From positions 1-43,851 of IMG/VR virus record IMGVR_UViG_3300010885_047074: a stretch of 43,851 nucleotides of DNA; one strand, 5' to 3'. The translations under genes and the position numbers were made by a program. This stretch comes from a virus. Shown in pieces: positions 1 through 21,875 of the stretch. The first letter of the stretch is position 1. Each line of letters begins with the position of its first letter. The notes beneath the pieces were generated by a model that did not search any database, was not told the DNA's origin, and saw only the letters and a list, made by a program, of their open reading frames with translations.

Positions 1-715
1 AGTTTCTCTCTTTAGATAAAATATACATCTCTTGCCAATTAATAATTCGGTTAAATTCTTTAGATAATTCTATACCCTTTTCAATAAAATAGCTATCATT
101 TAAACCGCAAGAGTTTGAATTTTTAATACCTTTAGAACGCTCTTTTAGCTTTATTCTTTCTTTTAAGCTAGCTTTTCTGCCTTTTGAGTGATGTACCCAC
201 TCGCCGCTTTTTATTTTGGGGTGAGTGGTTTCTACAGAACCGATAATAATGCCGGTAGTAGCATCTTTTACCACCACTGTACCTTTTCTCGCTTCTGATA
301 TTCGTTGACGACCTTCTGGGGTTTGCCATCCGGTAGTTTCTCTCACTGTTGCAGACTGATGTTTTAACCAGGCGTACCCCATACGGAGAGATTTAGTGAG
401 GCTGTACACTGGCTTACATGTTTTATTTTTATTATATCCATTTAAACAGAATCTTACTGCAAGTATGTCGTTTCTAATATTAAATATTTTCCATCGAAGC
501 ATATGAATAAAAATATGCTCTTCTGGTAGTAGTGTAACAAGATTATTAATCATATCTGTTCCTTCAAGAGATCTTGGAATTATGTGATGTACTTCAACAT
601 ATATGTGATTATTTTTAAGTCTTAAGTCTTTTAGATTTCTTTGCTCAAGCCTAAATCTTGGAGTTGTTTGTCTGCAATAATTAATTAATTTGTCGTGTAT
701 ATTTTTGTAATTCAT
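1..715 (-). CDS. HNH homing endonuclease, free-standing (C-terminus beyond left edge)
   Basis: I translated this frame by hand: it opens with ATG at 715 (MNYKNIHDKLINYC) and stays open to base 1, so at least 238 residues are present and the end lies outside the window. Residues 40-75 carry an HNH core: VEVHHIIPRSLEG, then NNLVTLLPEEH and a further His (IHML), the H-H-N-H metal and catalytic arrangement. The downstream half has a basic DNA-recognition-like tail with GRQRISEARKG, IIGSV and SGEWVHHSKGRKA, a layout common in T4-like phage HNH endonucleases. It starts 41 bases after the stop of the NrdA N-terminal gene that ends inside an intein, so it sits where the endonuclease lies in fractured genes with split inteins. 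Inferred role: a DNA endonuclease that spreads the intein or its own locus. The HNH call is firm; the cleavage target is inference. Confidence 0.85.
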   Translation of the reverse strand, partial: MNYKNIHDKLINYCRQTTPRFRLEQRNLKDLRLKNNHIYVEVHHIIPRSLEGTDMINNLVTLLPEEHIFIHMLRWKIFNIRNDILAVRFCLNGYNKNKTCKPVYSLTKSLRMGYAWLKHQSATVRETTGWQTPEGRQRISEARKGTVVVKDATTGIIIGSVETTHPKIKSGEWVHHSKGRKASLKERIKLKERSKGIKNSNSCGLNDSYFIEKGIELSKEFNRIINWQEMYILSKERN

Positions 716-756: not shown

Positions 757-2385
757 TTAAGCGTCTAATACAAGAATATCTGTTACAAGCAGATCTTTTG
801 CTTCCACATACCCTCGATTGTGAGTGTAAATCTTATGTTCTGGGGTGCATTGAATTGTATGACCGGTAGTTTCATCTTCAATTTCAATTAACTCTTCAGA
901 TACACCGGTCTGTGCAAACGCACTAATTAATGAGACTGCATTAGTATCTGCTGCAATATCATATGATCTAATATGTACTGTACCTTCTTGCATATATTTT
1001 TCAAGATCTTTAATTTGAATTGTCAGGTCACCGTATATCGCGGTGCTGATATCAATTAAGGTTTCTCCAACTAAACACAGATTAGTCATAGATACTCTCT
1101 CCAAAAAGGATCCGTGTTCATTGCAATGATCAATATTCATCACATATAGGCGACCAGTTTCAGTACGTTCCTTTACAAATTGAGACATCAAAGAACTGGC
1201 CTTCACTTTTCTCTTATAACGAATATTTTTATCTGATTCATATTTTTCATACAATTCATCAAAATGAGGAAGACCAAACGCTTCTGTCAAATCTGGTACT
1301 TCATGTGAGGAAAACAAAGTGATTGATTCATTTTTCATGAAGCGTTCATAAAAGATCTTGGAAAATTGTATCACATAATCAACTTTACGAACTCGATTGT
1401 CTTCTGTTCCTCCGTTGTTTTTAAGAGATAAAACATCTTCTATTTCATAGTGCCAGAACGGAAAATTTACAGTAGCGCCGCCGCCACGAATTCCGTTTTG
1501 TTGACAACTTTTGACGGTGGCTTCAAATACCTTGAGAAAAGGAATTACTCCAGTGTGAATAACGCTGCCATTTTTAATTTCAGTGCCGATACCGCGAATC
1601 CTTCCAAAATTTAATCCGATTCCGTATCGCTGAGTAGTAGCAAAGCCAGCAGCAGTATTGGAACTAAAAATAGACTCCTTAGTATCATCCACATCAATGA
1701 GGCAACACGACGCATACTGTTTAAGCAAACCGCGGATACCCGCCATTTGGGGTGTGGGTAAATTGATTTTAAATTTACTAAATCGGTCGTAGGCTCTTTT
1801 AACATATTGTAATCGGTTTTCTGGTGGATATTTCATGTAGCTCACCATGGCTGCCATCATATAGGCAAACTGGGGTGTTTCGTAAATTTCTTTGCTCTTA
1901 CGATTTTGAATCAAATATTTATCACACAATTGTTTGAGGCCTGAATATGTAAAGTCATAATCTCTGTTATGAACTATCTTTTCATCTAATTTATCTATTT
2001 CCGCCTTGGTATAGTGTTGAAGAATCTCCGGGTGATATATTTTTCTTTCAACATTGGCTTCTATAAAATCATAAAATTTCGGGGGATTTTTTCCTCCCCA
2101 CACATCTTTACGCAATTGATAACTTAATAACCGAGAAGCTACCCATTGATAATTGGGATTTTCTTCATTAAAAAGATTAATAGCAGATTCTACTAACACT
2201 TTATGGATTTCTTTAGTAGAGATACCATCTACAAGGTTTAATTTGGTATTAATTTCAATGTCTGAAATACTAACACCGGTTATTTCTTGAGTTGCCCATA
2301 TAATAACTTTGTTGATGTTGTCTACATTAAAAGGAACCAAGGTACCATCTCTTTTTCTGACTTTGAGGATATTATTTTCACTCAT
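757..2385 (-). CDS. nrdA: Ribonucleoside-diphosphate reductase alpha subunit, N-terminal part fused to N-half of a split intein
   Basis: Class I ribonucleotide reductase large subunit, which makes deoxyribonucleotides for phage DNA synthesis. Residues 1-95 are an ATP-cone allosteric domain (VRKRDGTLVPFNV near the start). The catalytic barrel follows, with QYASCCLIDVDD holding the first redox Cys and GGGATVNFPFWH. The reading frame reaches the motif SMTNL, where the family continues with the active-site Cys (SNLCLEI in E. coli), and then switches to intein sequence (from residue 437) and stops at 542. The extein part is 436 residues, against about 750-780 for a whole NrdA, so the C-terminal half with the remaining active-site residues must be a separate gene to the left, beyond the HNH gene. 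No frameshift is needed. ATG at 2385 has no Shine-Dalgarno; an AACAACAAACAA leader and a CTAAATAAA box lie upstream. Confidence 0.92.
   Translation of the reverse strand: MSENNILKVRKRDGTLVPFNVDNINKVIIWATQEITGVSISDIEINTKLNLVDGISTKEIHKVLVESAINLFNEENPNYQWVASRLLSYQLRKDVWGGKNPPKFYDFIEANVERKIYHPEILQHYTKAEIDKLDEKIVHNRDYDFTYSGLKQLCDKYLIQNRKSKEIYETPQFAYMMAAMVSYMKYPPENRLQYVKRAYDRFSKFKINLPTPQMAGIRGLLKQYASCCLIDVDDTKESIFSSNTAAGFATTQRYGIGLNFGRIRGIGTEIKNGSVIHTGVIPFLKVFEATVKSCQQNGIRGGGATVNFPFWHYEIEDVLSLKNNGGTEDNRVRKVDYVIQFSKIFYERFMKNESITLFSSHEVPDLTEAFGLPHFDELYEKYESDKNIRYKRKVKASSLMSQFVKERTETGRLYVMNIDHCNEHGSFLERVSMTNLCLVGETLIDISTAIYGDLTIQIKDLEKYMQEGTVHIRSYDIAADTNAVSLISAFAQTGVSEELIEIEDETTGHTIQCTPEHKIYTHNRGYVEAKDLLVTDILVLDA
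760..1077 (-). mobile_element. N-terminal half of a split intein in NrdA
   Basis: Residues 437-542 of the NrdA gene are 106 residues of intein. Block A begins at C437 (CLVGETLIDIS). Block B is near the end (GHTIQCTPEHKIYTHNRGYV), holding the TxxH that catalyses the N-terminal acyl shift. The frame stops about 15 residues after block B (VTDILVLDA, then TAA). Blocks F and G, including the terminal His-Asn, are missing, which is what a naturally split intein N-half looks like. It closely resembles split NrdA/NrdJ inteins from marine metagenomes, which also read CTPxHxxYTxNRGYV and end shortly after. The insertion point is just before the catalytic Cys of NrdA, which would act as the +1 residue. 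The C-half is expected beyond the left edge. Confidence 0.88.
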
Positions 2386-4029: not shown

Positions 4030-4425
4030 ATGAAATTTAAATATACAAACTCTAACAATGAGGAGGCTTTTTTTGAGGCAGTTCCGTTGACTACAGAACT
4101 TTATACAGAGTTGATAGAAATAGACAAAGAATTTCTTCAAAATGTTGCAGAAGGCAAAGAAGTTTTTTTTAAGGATGAGCCCTTGATAGAAGCGGCGAAA
4201 AGTTTGTTAATCTCTTTTGGTAAAGGAAAAGAAATTCAACCTTCTTCTCTTTCAGATACTCATGAAGTTCTATTAGTGACTTCAAAAACAATTCTCAAAG
4301 AGGCAGAAGAATATAAGAAAACCAATTACACACCCAAAAGAATTGTAAGAGATAAAATGATCACTAGTAAGATTAGATCCTTCAAAAAAGAAAAAATGGA
4401 ATTAAATTTTGATTTGGCCCACTAA
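4030..4425 (+). CDS. Hypothetical protein
   Basis: A 131-residue, mostly helical, charged protein I do not recognise. The N-terminal third looks beta-rich (MKFKYTNSNNEEAFFEAVPL); the rest is helices ending in a basic segment (SKIRSFKKEKMELNF). There is no Cys pair, signal peptide or membrane segment. It lies between the nuclease and the acidic scaffold-like gene, 22 bases after the former, and is probably expressed with the late genes. Confidence 0.55.
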   Translation: MKFKYTNSNNEEAFFEAVPLTTELYTELIEIDKEFLQNVAEGKEVFFKDEPLIEAAKSLLISFGKGKEIQPSSLSDTHEVLLVTSKTILKEAEEYKKTNYTPKRIVRDKMITSKIRSFKKEKMELNFDLAH

Positions 4426-4429
4426 AAAG

Positions 4430-4438
4430 GTAAATATT
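4430..4438 (+). promoter_or_regulatory. Late-promoter-like box
   Basis: GTAAATATT, 10 bases before the ATG at 4449, in the only gap between the two flanking genes. It fits the shared STAADTATT motif. Confidence 0.45.
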
Positions 4439-4448
4439 GTTACAACAT

Positions 4449-5330
4449 ATGTCATTGCTCAACGCCTATACACAAATTTTAAATGAAAGTGGAAAAGACC
4501 ACGAAGTTAAAGGAGCCGTAAAAAAGGGTCAAGATTTTGCCTCGGGTTTAAAGGTTAATAAACAAGAAGGACCCAAGGTTGAATCTCCTAAAGAAGATAA
4601 AGAACATTCTGTAGATGGTGAAAACAATGGCGTTCCTAAGAAGTTAGCCAAAGAATCTTCTAATCCCTTTGATGCTATTTACAATAAAATCTTAGCCCAA
4701 GAAAATTGGGAAGCTGAAGAAGAAGCTAACGAACAACCTAACTTTGGATCACCCACTGGTCATGATTCCAACAATATGGAGTTTAGTGGTGACAACTCTT
4801 CCGGAGAGGGTGAAGTTGAATTAACAGATGATTCGGATGAACATCCAATGAGCCAGGTCCTCTCTGCCTTAAAGGCCGCTGTCGAAGCTTTAGAAAAAGT
4901 TATCAGTCCAGAGAGTGGTGAAGAAGGTGAAGGTGAAGAAGAAGAAGGTGAAGAAGGTGAAGAACACGAAGAGGATGAAAGTGACGAAGAAGAAAAAGAA
5001 GAACATCAAGAATTTGGTGAATCAACCGAGGAAGACGACGATGACGATGACGATGAAGATGAAGACGGTGATGTTAAAAAGGAAGAAGTAGATGCTCAAG
5101 TTTTGGGCCATGCTTTAATTGACTTGGAAAAATTGGCAGCCAGCTTAACGAGTCCTAAAAACCAAGTTGTTAAGGGAGCAGTGCCAGTTAATAAAGGAAA
5201 GGCTCAAGTGCCTAAGGGTGTTAAGACAACTCCAAGACCCACAGAATTAAAGGGCAAGGGCGAAAGTCTTCAAAGCAAAAAAGTTGACACTGGTTATGTC
5301 AAGAAAGACAAAAACTGGTACGATCAGTAA
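4449..5330 (+). CDS. Highly acidic protein, candidate prohead core/scaffold
   Basis: A 293-residue protein starting MSLLNAYTQILNES. An in-frame TTG at 4437 would add four residues, but the ATG lies just behind a late-promoter-like box and is preferred. A second, similar helix reads NPFDAIYNKILAQ. Residues 155-220 are almost pure Glu/Asp/Gly (repeated GEEGE, then DDDDDDDED), and the C-terminal 80 residues are basic and Lys/Val-rich. This acidic, low-complexity layout resembles T4 prohead core proteins such as gp67, which are packed in the scaffold and later cleaved. The position in a late block next to the neck gene fits. There is no alignment-level evidence, so the function is inference. Confidence 0.6.
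   Translation: MSLLNAYTQILNESGKDHEVKGAVKKGQDFASGLKVNKQEGPKVESPKEDKEHSVDGENNGVPKKLAKESSNPFDAIYNKILAQENWEAEEEANEQPNFGSPTGHDSNNMEFSGDNSSGEGEVELTDDSDEHPMSQVLSALKAAVEALEKVISPESGEEGEGEEEEGEEGEEHEEDESDEEEKEEHQEFGESTEEDDDDDDDEDEDGDVKKEEVDAQVLGHALIDLEKLAASLTSPKNQVVKGAVPVNKGKAQVPKGVKTTPRPTELKGKGESLQSKKVDTGYVKKDKNWYDQ
4916..5065 (+). repeat. Low-complexity acidic coding repeat
   Basis: Tandem GGTGAAGAA-type units followed by GAC/GAT runs encode Gly-Glu-Glu and poly-Asp inside the scaffold-like gene. The repeat is imperfect and in frame. It could vary in length by slippage. Confidence 0.7.
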
Positions 5331-5350
5331 ATTTGATTAAACAAATTAAA

Positions 5351-5377
5351 AACTCCGCTTAAGCGGAGTTTTTTTTT
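5351..5377 (+). terminator. Rho-independent terminator
   Basis: A perfect 20-base palindrome (AACTCCGCTT/AAGCGGAGTT) is followed directly by a T run to 5377. It lies 20 bases after the acidic gene and just before the late-promoter-like box of the next gene. This is the clearest terminator in the window. The upstream side has A-rich bases, so it may also work weakly in the other direction. Confidence 0.9.
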
Positions 5378-5386
5378 CTAAATATA
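5378..5386 (+). promoter_or_regulatory. Late-promoter-like box
   Basis: CTAAATATA sits right after the terminator T run and 2 bases before the ATG at 5389. A terminator followed at once by a promoter-like box supports a new transcription unit starting here. Confidence 0.5.
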
Positions 5387-5388
5387 TC

Positions 5389-5799
5389 ATGGAAGATAAT
5401 TTTTATTCTTTTTATAAAAAAAATCAGGGACTGCCTTCTGCTTTTACTAAGAGTCACGGTGTTACAAAAAATACCAGAAAACATCATCAGAGTGTCGATA
5501 GACTTGCCAAAATAGGTCATCGCAAAAGTGGTAAGGTTAATTTGGTTGCGGCAAGTGAAAACCAATCCTTAAAAAATCCAGTAGTAAATGCTTTTGCAAA
5601 TTCTAATCGAACTTTTATAAAAGGATTAACTTGGGCAATAGTAAAACCTATACTAGATGCATACAAGATTCAACATGATGTAGAATCTGAAGAGACTTAT
5701 GATAAATCTCTTAATAGAGTTCAATGTAAATTAACCGGTGCTAAAATAATTATTCGTTATATTCCTCAAAACAAAACTTGGGTGCTTTTTAAGAAATAA
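5389..5799 (+). CDS. Hypothetical late protein
   Basis: A 136-residue basic protein I do not recognise. The first 50 residues are rich in His, Lys and Ser (KSHGVTKNTRKHHQSV). The C-terminal half looks like an alpha/beta domain (GLTWAIVKPILDAYK, then KLTGAKIIIRYIPQNKTWVLF). It is the first gene after the terminator and is one base from the gp14-like neck gene, so it is probably a late structural or assembly protein. T4 gp13 is a positional possibility only; I see no sequence match. Confidence 0.55.
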   Translation: MEDNFYSFYKKNQGLPSAFTKSHGVTKNTRKHHQSVDRLAKIGHRKSGKVNLVAASENQSLKNPVVNAFANSNRTFIKGLTWAIVKPILDAYKIQHDVESEETYDKSLNRVQCKLTGAKIIIRYIPQNKTWVLFKK

Positions 5800-5800
5800 T

Positions 5801-6430
5801 ATGGAAACTTTACGTTATCTTAATAAACAACACAACCAATCTGAAAGACAGAACTTTTCAAATTGGTGGAAGGAACAGATTCAAATTAATGGACAGGAAA
5901 TAGTTTATTATAGCAATCAAACCTCTTTATCCGGAAGCAATCCTCTATACGGAGAGCAACCAGACGCGGGGTTCGGAGATGGACATCCTTTGATAGTATT
6001 AGGTAATTTAAACGGTGATTCTGTTTTATTATCTAAATTTGGTTTAATAGCAGACGGTGAATGGTCCGGAGTTCTACACAAAGATACCTATACAACTGTA
6101 TATGGTTTATCTTCTGAACCCAAAAGAGGAGATCTTATGGCGTTAGTTGAATACGGAGTAGATCGAATCAATTATCCTAAAAGAGGAACTACTATATATG
6201 AATTAACAGATGTAGTTGACGAGTTTAAAGGAAATCCTTTGATGGGCCATTACGTGTGGTTTTTTACAGGCAAGAGATATGACTACAGCCAAGAACCACA
6301 CAGTCCTGGTGCTGGTATGGGAAATCTTCCATTAGAAGATAATGATGTTATACAACAAATTGCAGACGAGAATTTTAATTATATAGAAGAAAACCCAGAC
6401 AGTAATACTAGTGTTTACGGTGAATATTAA
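5801..6430 (+). CDS. gp14-like neck protein
   Basis: A 209-residue protein with the motif order of T4 gp14, the neck protein that closes the filled head and joins it to the tail. It has an N-terminal helix with IQINGQEIVYYSNQ (T4: IQQRGIGIYYVPRE), then LYGEQPDAGFGDG (T4: IFGEDPTSKFTDA), LLSKFGL (T4: YSKFGM), PKRGDLMALVEYGVDRINY (T4: PREGDLVYFP...FEINW) and VWFFTGKRYDYSQE (T4: KFIYSGEEI). T4 gp14 is 256 residues, so this is a shorter form. It shares its last 4 bases with the convergent gene on the minus strand. The match is by eye and partial, but the order is right. Confidence 0.65.
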   Translation: METLRYLNKQHNQSERQNFSNWWKEQIQINGQEIVYYSNQTSLSGSNPLYGEQPDAGFGDGHPLIVLGNLNGDSVLLSKFGLIADGEWSGVLHKDTYTTVYGLSSEPKRGDLMALVEYGVDRINYPKRGTTIYELTDVVDEFKGNPLMGHYVWFFTGKRYDYSQEPHSPGAGMGNLPLEDNDVIQQIADENFNYIEENPDSNTSVYGEY

Positions 6431-18998: not shown

Positions 18999-21875
18999 AT
19001 GAGTTCTGGATTAAATGAAGATGATGATTTAGATCCGGAAGATGTTTTAGTTGACGGAAAATTTTATCAAGGCAATGAAAACATCCTGAGAAAGGATGGT
19101 ACTTTTAAATGGACAGATGAAATGATTGCTGATTTTAAACTCTGCAATAAAAGCATACTACATTTTGCCGAAAACCATTTTTATATAGTTTCTCTAGACA
19201 GAGGAAAAGAAAGAATAGAATTATACAAATATCAAAAAAGACTTTTAAAGGCATTTAAGAGTAATCGTTTTAATGTAGTATTGAGTAGTCGGCAAAGTGG
19301 CAAAGCCTTGGATATTAATACCCCTATTCCTACACCTAATGGAAATGTGAAAATGGGTGATTTAAAAGACGGAGATCAAATTTACGGACTAGACGGAAAT
19401 GTATATAATGTAATCAAGGCTCATGATTTTTTATACAACAGAAATTGTTATAAAGTAATATTTGATAACGGAGAAGAAATCATAGCAGATGAAGATCATC
19501 TATGGTTTACACAGGAAAGATTGGAAAGAAAAAAGAAATTAGCTGGTAGTGTAAAGACAACAAAAGAAATTTTAAATACATTAACTGTTGGTAGTAAAAA
19601 GGAACCAAGACATCGTATACCCATGGCCAGAAACGGAATAATGGGAAAAGAAACAAATTTACCAATAGATCCGTATGTACTCGGTTTGTGGTTAGGAGAC
19701 GGAAATACAGACGGGGCAAATATAACTGTTGGTCCACGAGATGTTGAATTTTTACTTGAAAAATTAAATAACAACAAACAGTTTAATAAAATTACTTTAT
19801 ATCAATTCAAAGAACGTTTGTGGGCTATAAATCCTACTCACACAGATAAAAAACAATCTCTTTGGTCCTGTTTAAAACAAAATAATTTATTAGGAAATAA
19901 ACATATACCAGAAATATATTTTAAATCCTCTAGAGAGCAGCGTTTGGAGTTATTAAAAGGTTTGATGGACTCAGATGGTTATATTTCTCCATCTGGCCAA
20001 GCTAATTTTGATAATAGTAATTTGGAATTGGGACATCAAGTCATAAAACTTGTCAGGGAATTAGGATATAGTGTTACTCACATCATACACACTCCAAAAT
20101 TTAACGGCAAAGAATGTGCGGATTCTATGAGAGTTTGTTTTAAACCTCGGGAAGAAGTAGTGAGTATACCTTATAAAAAAAATAAATTAAAATTAACAGA
20201 TGAATTAAGAAGAAATACTTGGCATTATATTAAAGAAATAATTCCAGTAGAAAGCCGGCCAGTTAGGTGTATTACGGTGGATAGTCCAGATAACCTATAT
20301 CTTTGCGGCAAATCTCTTATCCCTACTCACAACACCACAACCATTACCATATATGCGTTGTGGATTGCTTGCTTTCAAAAAGATAAAAAAATAACCATTG
20401 TTGCAAATAAAGAAGCAACTGCAAAAGAAATATTTGCAAGAGTAAAAATGGCATATGAACAATTGCCTATTTATTTAAAACCCGCTATTAAATCCTGGAG
20501 AAAGGACGGTTTTCAATTATCCAATGATTCTGAAATAAAAATTAGTACCACATCAGGATCTGCTGGCCGTGGTGGCAGTAGTAATTTGCTTATCATTGAT
20601 GAAATGGCACACTGTCCTTCTGAGGTGATGAAAGAATTGTGGAGATCCGCTATACCCATTATTACCGCTTCAACCACTTCTCAAATTGTTATTATTAGTA
20701 CTCCAAACGGAACAGATAATAAATTTTATGAATTGTGTGAAGATTCTAAAAAGAAAAATAGTTCTTGGAATCTAGAAAGAGTTGATTGGACAGATGTTCC
20801 AGGGAGAGATGAGACTTGGAAAAAAATGACCATGGATTTGCTTGGCGGCAATGAAGACGACTTTAATCAAGAATATGGAAATGTATTCAATGTGCCTGGC
20901 AGATCTCTTTTAGATGCAAAATATCTAGAAGAACTAAAGGCTCAGTGTCCTGAACCTGTATTAGTTACGGACGAAGGGTGTTATAAGATTTTTCATTTAC
21001 CTAAACCAGAATCCTTTTATGTAATAGGTGTTGATGTTGGGGAAGGAATAGGCCGATCTAACAGTACAGCTCAGATTTTTGATGTGTCAAATCTTCAAAA
21101 TATTATACAAGTGGCTACCTATGCTGCAAATTCTATTAACCCTTATCATTTTGGGTCTAGGTTAATGAATATAATAAATGACTGGGGTAGACCTCCGGTT
21201 TTAGTGGAAAGTAATAATTATGGGCAGCAAGTATTAGATGTTTTACACCAAGCTCATAATTATGAAAACATTGTATCTTATCAAGCAACCGGAAGCAGCA
21301 AACATTATAAAACTGAACACCGGAAGGGTATTTTTAATCACACAAATACTAGATATAATGGCATTACAAATTTTAGATATTGGAGCAATAGTTTAAAAGC
21401 AGTCAAATTTAATGATCCAGAAACTTTATTTGAATTAAATTCTTTTGTAAGATTACCTAATTATACATACACCAAAAGAACCGATAAAGACTTGGATGAT
21501 AGAGTGTTTGGGTGTATTTGGGCATTGTATATTTTAATGCCGGACATAGTTTCTTCTTATTTTTACGTAAGAGAATATGATGACCAAGGCAAACCGACTA
21601 AAATTATTCCTTTAGTTGATAACAGTGATTTAATATTAAAAAGTCCACTCTTACACGGCAATGTAAGTAATATAATAAATAGTAAAAACAGAAGTGTCAA
21701 TGTTACTTCAGTTTTAATATCACCAAAAAATTCTAACACTTCTGCTTTAGATGATGAGGCAAGAGAATTGTGGAGGTGGTTACATTGTGATACTTTTAAA
21801 AGTAAAGAAGAAAATTCTTTTTTAGAAAATAAAGAAGAAACCGTTGAAGAATATAGGCCTATAATTTTATTTTAA
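18999..21875 (+). CDS. gp17: Terminase large subunit (gp17-like) interrupted by a class 3 intein
   Basis: DNA-packaging motor: ATPase plus headful nuclease. The 958-residue frame holds a 343-residue intein at 103-445; the spliced protein would be 615 residues, matching T4 gp17 (610). The ATPase has Walker A SSRQSGK, split from TT by the intein (T4: SRQLGKTT). Walker B is LLIIDE at 530-535, followed by IVIISTPNG (coupling motif, T4: IIITTTPNG). The RNase H-like nuclease has GVDVGEG (D679), LVESNN (E737) and DLDDRVFG (D833/D834). ATPase function requires splicing, because the P-loop Lys and Thr are on opposite sides of the intein. It lies in the middle of baseplate genes, 1 base after gp53 and 1 base before a tube-like gene, not next to gp16/gp18 as in T4. 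Confidence 0.96.
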   Translation: MSSGLNEDDDLDPEDVLVDGKFYQGNENILRKDGTFKWTDEMIADFKLCNKSILHFAENHFYIVSLDRGKERIELYKYQKRLLKAFKSNRFNVVLSSRQSGKALDINTPIPTPNGNVKMGDLKDGDQIYGLDGNVYNVIKAHDFLYNRNCYKVIFDNGEEIIADEDHLWFTQERLERKKKLAGSVKTTKEILNTLTVGSKKEPRHRIPMARNGIMGKETNLPIDPYVLGLWLGDGNTDGANITVGPRDVEFLLEKLNNNKQFNKITLYQFKERLWAINPTHTDKKQSLWSCLKQNNLLGNKHIPEIYFKSSREQRLELLKGLMDSDGYISPSGQANFDNSNLELGHQVIKLVRELGYSVTHIIHTPKFNGKECADSMRVCFKPREEVVSIPYKKNKLKLTDELRRNTWHYIKEIIPVESRPVRCITVDSPDNLYLCGKSLIPTHNTTTITIYALWIACFQKDKKITIVANKEATAKEIFARVKMAYEQLPIYLKPAIKSWRKDGFQLSNDSEIKISTTSGSAGRGGSSNLLIIDEMAHCPSEVMKELWRSAIPIITASTTSQIVIISTPNGTDNKFYELCEDSKKKNSSWNLERVDWTDVPGRDETWKKMTMDLLGGNEDDFNQEYGNVFNVPGRSLLDAKYLEELKAQCPEPVLVTDEGCYKIFHLPKPESFYVIGVDVGEGIGRSNSTAQIFDVSNLQNIIQVATYAANSINPYHFGSRLMNIINDWGRPPVLVESNNYGQQVLDVLHQAHNYENIVSYQATGSSKHYKTEHRKGIFNHTNTRYNGITNFRYWSNSLKAVKFNDPETLFELNSFVRLPNYTYTKRTDKDLDDRVFGCIWALYILMPDIVSSYFYVREYDDQGKPTKIIPLVDNSDLILKSPLLHGNVSNIINSKNRSVNVTSVLISPKNSNTSALDDEARELWRWLHCDTFKSKEENSFLENKEETVEEYRPIILF
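19305..20333 (+). mobile_element. Class 3 (Ala1) intein with LAGLIDADG homing endonuclease, in terminase P-loop
   Basis: 343 residues inserted between GK and TT of Walker A. It begins with Ala (ALDINTPIPTPNG) instead of Cys/Ser and ends THN before Thr+1. Block B holds H65-x-W67 (DEDHLWFTQ), block F has C322 (VRCITVDSPDN), and block G has T341 (THN). Together W-C-T is the signature of class 3 inteins, in which the block F Cys replaces the first residue as nucleophile. A two-motif LAGLIDADG endonuclease occupies the middle: VLGLWLGDG (125-133, D132) and LLKGLMDSDG (216-225, D222/D224). Both splicing and endonuclease residues look intact. No frame disruption; the base composition is like its host gene. 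Confidence 0.93.

Follow-up and report, generated by a model that had tools for sequence, protein, structure and literature searches.

The window (43,851 bases, an IMG/VR viral contig) very probably (about 95%) carries a class 3 intein that is mobile and self-splicing, contains a LAGLIDADG homing endonuclease and is inserted in the Walker A motif of a T4-like terminase. The locus, all on the + strand, consists of the following features:

18999..21875, + strand: terminase large subunit precursor (T4 gp17 type, gp17/TerL), 958 aa in one open frame; exteins sum to 615 aa
18999..19304, + strand: N-extein, 102 aa, with the Walker A end ...SRQSGK, aligned to empty-site relatives
19305..20333, + strand: class 3 intein, 343 aa, precursor residues 103-445
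19497..19505, + strand: block B core His65-Leu66-Trp67 (W of the Trp-Cys-Thr, or WCT, triplet); His and Trp in 89/89 aligned inteins
19659..20186, + strand: LAGLIDADG homing endonuclease domain with approximate limits (residues 119-294); Pfam LAGLIDADG_3, E 1.3e-5
20268..20270, + strand: Cys322, predicted block F nucleophile (C of WCT), kept in 89/89 aligned inteins
20325..20333, + strand: Thr341-His342-Asn343 (T of WCT, penultimate His, terminal Asn)
20334..21875, + strand: C-extein, Thr+1 first (TTTITIYA), then the remaining ATPase and nuclease domains

The terminase frame matched Pfam Terminase_6N (E 1.2e-10) and the PHROG 36964 terminase large subunit (E 4.1e-90). The intein translates to 343 residues, from ALDINTPIP to IPTHN, between LSSRQSGK upstream and TTTITIYA downstream, and the insertion point lies between the Walker A Lys and Thr of TerL (SRQSGK/T). 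Its key residues are Ala1, Cys48, Asp62, His65, Trp67, Cys322, Thr341, His342 and Asn343, with Thr at +1. The limits, the positions of Ala1, Trp, Cys322, Thr341 and the final His-Asn, the split between Lys and Thr, and the +1 Thr had all been given in a first-pass annotation; the translation of the single open frame bears them out exactly, and relatives have exact empty sites. With the Lys and Thr of Walker A held apart by the intein, no ATP hydrolysis is expected of the precursor. It is a sound inference from the interrupted motif that TerL ATPase activity depends entirely on splicing, and unspliced TerL would be unable to package DNA.

Matches to the intein occur in 761 phage records, and one scan of viral contigs gave at least 543 relatives. 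The G+C content is 32.5% in both the intein and the exteins, giving no hint of recent arrival from a different background, and a foreign base composition of the intein was rejected. The open frame and a second contig that is identical across the locus (L001/L011) rule out a chance or frameshift artefact. The environmental source of the contig would be compatible with an intein that has decayed and no longer splices, in a terminase pseudogene or a defective phage, but we regard this as highly improbable: the frame is open throughout, the splicing residues and endonuclease acids are all intact, and the locus is found unchanged in the second contig. An intein that failed to splice would be lethal, since the packaging gene TerL is essential and present in a single copy.

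Class 3 splicing residues and fold

Class 3 inteins are defined by a position 1 without a nucleophile and by a WCT triplet at fixed block positions (PMC7891396, PMC7664689), namely Trp at N3:12 (block B), Cys at C2:4 (block F) and Thr at C1:5 (block G) (PMC7891396). The window intein has Ala at position 1, with no Cys or Ser, and its Trp67, Cys322 and Thr341 fall in the same alignment columns as the triplets of 6rix and 6bs8. When the intein was compared by phmmer with all PDB sequences, the top matches were the class 3 DnaB1 inteins 6rix, 6riy and 6bs8, at E 2.8e-21 to 1.7e-20; the His, Trp, Cys and Thr residues line up in these alignments, and the match to 6rix (E = 2.8e-21) is far beyond chance. 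The best class 1 splicing domain in the PDB was gp41-1 (E 4.9e-5), and the WCT-engineered gp41-1, 6riz, scored E 1.9e-6. A profile comparison with class 3 inteins had been proposed as the check on the assignment, and in this form it places Trp and Cys at the expected block positions. The Pfam and NCBIfam intein models scored under their cut-offs, so the class was taken from phmmer, the alignment and a tree instead. Pfam PF05203 had no match across the window record and none in any control, which makes its silence uninformative.

We compared 88 related inteins from phage records and viral contigs, chosen by similarity to the query intein; the counts therefore hold for this subfamily rather than for inteins at large. 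The block B His, Trp, Cys, Thr and the terminal Asn are invariant (88/88) and are likewise kept in 56/56 representatives at 80% identity, while position 1 is Ala in 85 of the 88. In a tree of splicing domains, built after removal of the endonucleases, a single branch (100/99) separates 38 rows of class 3 from 10 of class 1, the class being assigned from the first residue and WCT. Several of the class 1 rows have long branches, and only this class 3/class 1 split is used. An AlphaFold2 model of the intein, built from an alignment of 40 sequences, had a mean pLDDT of 94.6 and a pTM of 0.91. In Foldseek this predicted model matched PI-SceI best, along its entire length (E 1.3e-18, TM 0.76). Its splicing domain matched the class 3 DnaB1 structures (E 6e-9 to 6e-8; TM 0.85-0.87 by target), among them 6riy at E 6e-9 with a target-normalised TM-score of 0.86-0.87, placing the model in the Hint fold. 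The PDB matches, the WCT alignment, the tree and the model thus agree with the class 3 identity first proposed from the letters.

A position 1 without a nucleophile is also a feature of class 2 inteins, in which case the +1 Thr would attack the N-junction directly and Cys322 would be incidental. We consider a class 2 or otherwise unusual intein very improbable and rejected it as the likeliest reading, since Cys in block F, Trp in block B and Thr in block G never vary within the family, and the closest relatives with solved structures are class 3 inteins that have been studied biochemically.

As a class 3 element the intein would splice in the order established for characterised class 3 inteins. 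Cys322, close to His65 and Thr341, would attack the bond ahead of Ala1 to give a branched thioester, and Thr+1, a residue permitted at this position in class 3 inteins (PMC7891396), would then accept the N-extein. Cyclisation of Asn343 and an acyl shift would restore SRQSGKTTT, a normal Walker A motif.

Homing endonuclease and empty alleles

The endonuclease was described at the outset as complete, and this holds. Both LAGLIDADG motifs have their acids intact, GLWLGDG (Asp132) and GLMDSDG (Asp222/Asp224), and Lys291 is present too; these four residues are kept in 87/87 aligned inteins bearing the endonuclease. PI-SceI matched intein residues 123-258 by phmmer (E 1.9e-5), and the fold matches to the domain in Foldseek were PI-SceI and I-DmoI. 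Judged from these residues the endonuclease is probably active, but it could be dead for reasons invisible in sequence. Its expected role is to cleave alleles without the intein at this position, whereupon repair would copy the intein in.

Such intein-free TerL alleles are present in L029 (93% over 107 residues), L012 (a 128,659-base contig, 81%) and L014-L018 (63%), all of which run from SRQSGK directly into TT or ST. A closely matched pair was found elsewhere in the family: L026 has a class 3 intein, only ~52% identical to that of the window, whereas L024 and L025 have none, and the DNA is ~95-98% identical over most of 300 bases on each side, with the last 24 bases upstream of the junction the same. 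The nearest relative, L032, is ~61% identical in the intein. Exact insertion together with presence and absence among close relatives fits homing and loss of the intein. The empty-site alleles matched to intein-bearing T4-like environmental phage make homing testable.

Cys48

Cys48 (window 19446-19448) aligns with Cys48 of DnaBi1, the class 3 DnaB intein of M. smegmatis, and is kept in 84/89 TerL/P-loop class 3 inteins and in 53/56 at 80% identity. In DnaBi1, H2O2 leads to a disulfide between Cys48, there termed non-conserved, and the catalytic Cys, and Cys48 is needed for splicing (PMC6195587). By analogy, the window intein might be a retained redox switch rather than a pure parasite, with a Cys48-Cys322 disulfide delaying terminase maturation. 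We consider this unlikely. All DnaBi1 Cys48 mutants failed to splice, so that conservation may reflect structural need only; just 4/16 distant class 3 inteins have the residue; and many close relatives are without the whole intein, so that it is dispensable. The wider proposal, that TerL and DnaB P-loop class 3 inteins share a redox switch of Cys48 and the block F Cys that times packaging-motor assembly to the redox state of the infected cell, is similarly doubtful. Cys48 was rejected as a class 3 hallmark on the same 4/16 count; by the alignment it is a trait of the TerL/P-loop class 3 subfamily. Its conservation there is mildly new: a full-text literature search for intein, terminase and Cys48, with most subscription journals outside its coverage, found no paper.

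Known terminase inteins and companion inteins

The first-pass annotation implied novelty, which the comparison with known inteins does not sustain: this combination of class, host protein and insertion site was known before. The same position is known as TerL1-a in mycobacteriophages, whose terminases have seven intein insertion sites; splicing in E. coli was shown for five representative inteins, from sites b, c, e, f and g, and two cleaved targets lacking the intein (PMC5050341). As here, TerL1-a lies in the terminase large subunit, and the LAGLIDADG-type inteins of these phages include class 3 (PMC5050341). The window intein occupies a TerL1-a-type site, between the invariant Walker A Lys and the Thr/Ser of the terminase, but the TerL1-a host is the terminase_1 type of actinobacteriophages whereas the host here is T4-type (Terminase_6N). 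Among T4-like and jumbo phages, we read the terminases of Escherichia phage kvi (MN850615, Straboviridae), Synechococcus phage B23 (MN695335, Kyanoviridae) and Klebsiella phage RaK2 (JQ513383), and each has a WCT intein with a LAGLIDADG domain between the same Walker A Lys and Thr. These inteins are ~38-42% identical to that of the window, and their records annotate terminase only. An intein plus LAGLIDADG has been reported in the RaK2 and K64-1 terminases (PMC5259590), and the T4-like phage Mooltan is also reported to have a terminase intein (PMC6486243). Among 1701 class 3 inteins counted, 82.5% had LAGLIDADG motifs (PMC7891396). Class 3 inteins at the TerL Walker A site are common in T4-like environmental terminases, and their relevance is greater for terminase gene calling, where they can lead to broken or over-long genes, than for splicing chemistry.

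Of the solved structures, the DnaB1 inteins of M. smegmatis (6bs8) and M. chimaera (6rix, 6riy) share the splicing domain, WCT, Cys48, Ala1 and a P-loop site with the window intein; they differ in being mini-inteins without an endonuclease, in their DnaB helicase host and, in M. smegmatis, in a +1 Ser. PI-SceI (the VMA intein) has the same overall Hint plus LAGLIDADG architecture but differs in its class 1 (Cys1) splicing and larger endonuclease region.

The window also encodes a tail sheath, a UvsX-like recombinase, a DnaB-like helicase, a T4-type DNA polymerase family protein and NrdA, a gene content that fits a T4-like contractile-tailed phage. Two further features lie near its start:

757..2385, - strand: N-terminal part of NrdA, running into a Cys1 intein N-half (CLVGETLIDI...) that follows SMTNL; C-half off the window
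2..715, - strand: stand-alone HNH endonuclease gene, following the NrdA-IntN frame

The C-half of this intein is expected past the start of the window. At this point NrdA of a sister contig (L110) is uninterrupted (755 aa, MTNLCVEVTH), and the sister contig with 81% identity in TerL is without both the TerL and the NrdA intein. Class 1 and class 3 inteins differ in their first nucleophile and have a common Hint fold. The first-pass annotation had claimed a split Cys1 intein in the same genome and two unrelated splicing mechanisms. The Cys1 N-half in NrdA is real, but it is the only half within the window; the first nucleophile does differ, but "unrelated" is overstated for two classes that share a fold, with the second intein half-seen. 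Class 1 and class 3 inteins were already known to occur together in one organism, and M. smegmatis DnaB has both in the same protein (PMC6195587).

In T4-like terminases, a class 3 intein at Walker A is often accompanied by class 1 inteins, cis or split, at other sites of the ATPase, and the presence of two or three inteins in several related terminases is mildly new. One terminase (L070:3001-7024, IMGVR_UViG_3300027896_000106) apparently has three. Its Walker A would hold a class 3 intein and its Walker B a split Cys1 intein, whose halves (IntN 4279-4398 and IntC 5309-5647) flank a stand-alone GIY-YIG-like ORF (4424-5302); the third is an endonuclease-free Cys1 intein (5939-6337). Split Cys1 inteins at Walker B were also found in L033, L056, L060 and L077, a cis mini-intein at Walker B in L004, further Cys1 cis inteins in L053, L109 and L098, and split inteins further downstream in the terminase in L046 and L101.

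The related class 3 inteins vary in several other respects. The penultimate His is replaced by Ser (IPTSN) in 12/88 (L002, L004, L005, L044, L045, L049, L050, L053, L068, L070, L071 and L077). The intein at L071:3001-4026 has the full WCT triplet plus a Cys at position 1, giving it two possible first nucleophiles. Endonuclease-free mini class 3 inteins occupy the same Walker A site at L004:2656-3126 (157 aa) and L005:3001-3480 (160 aa).
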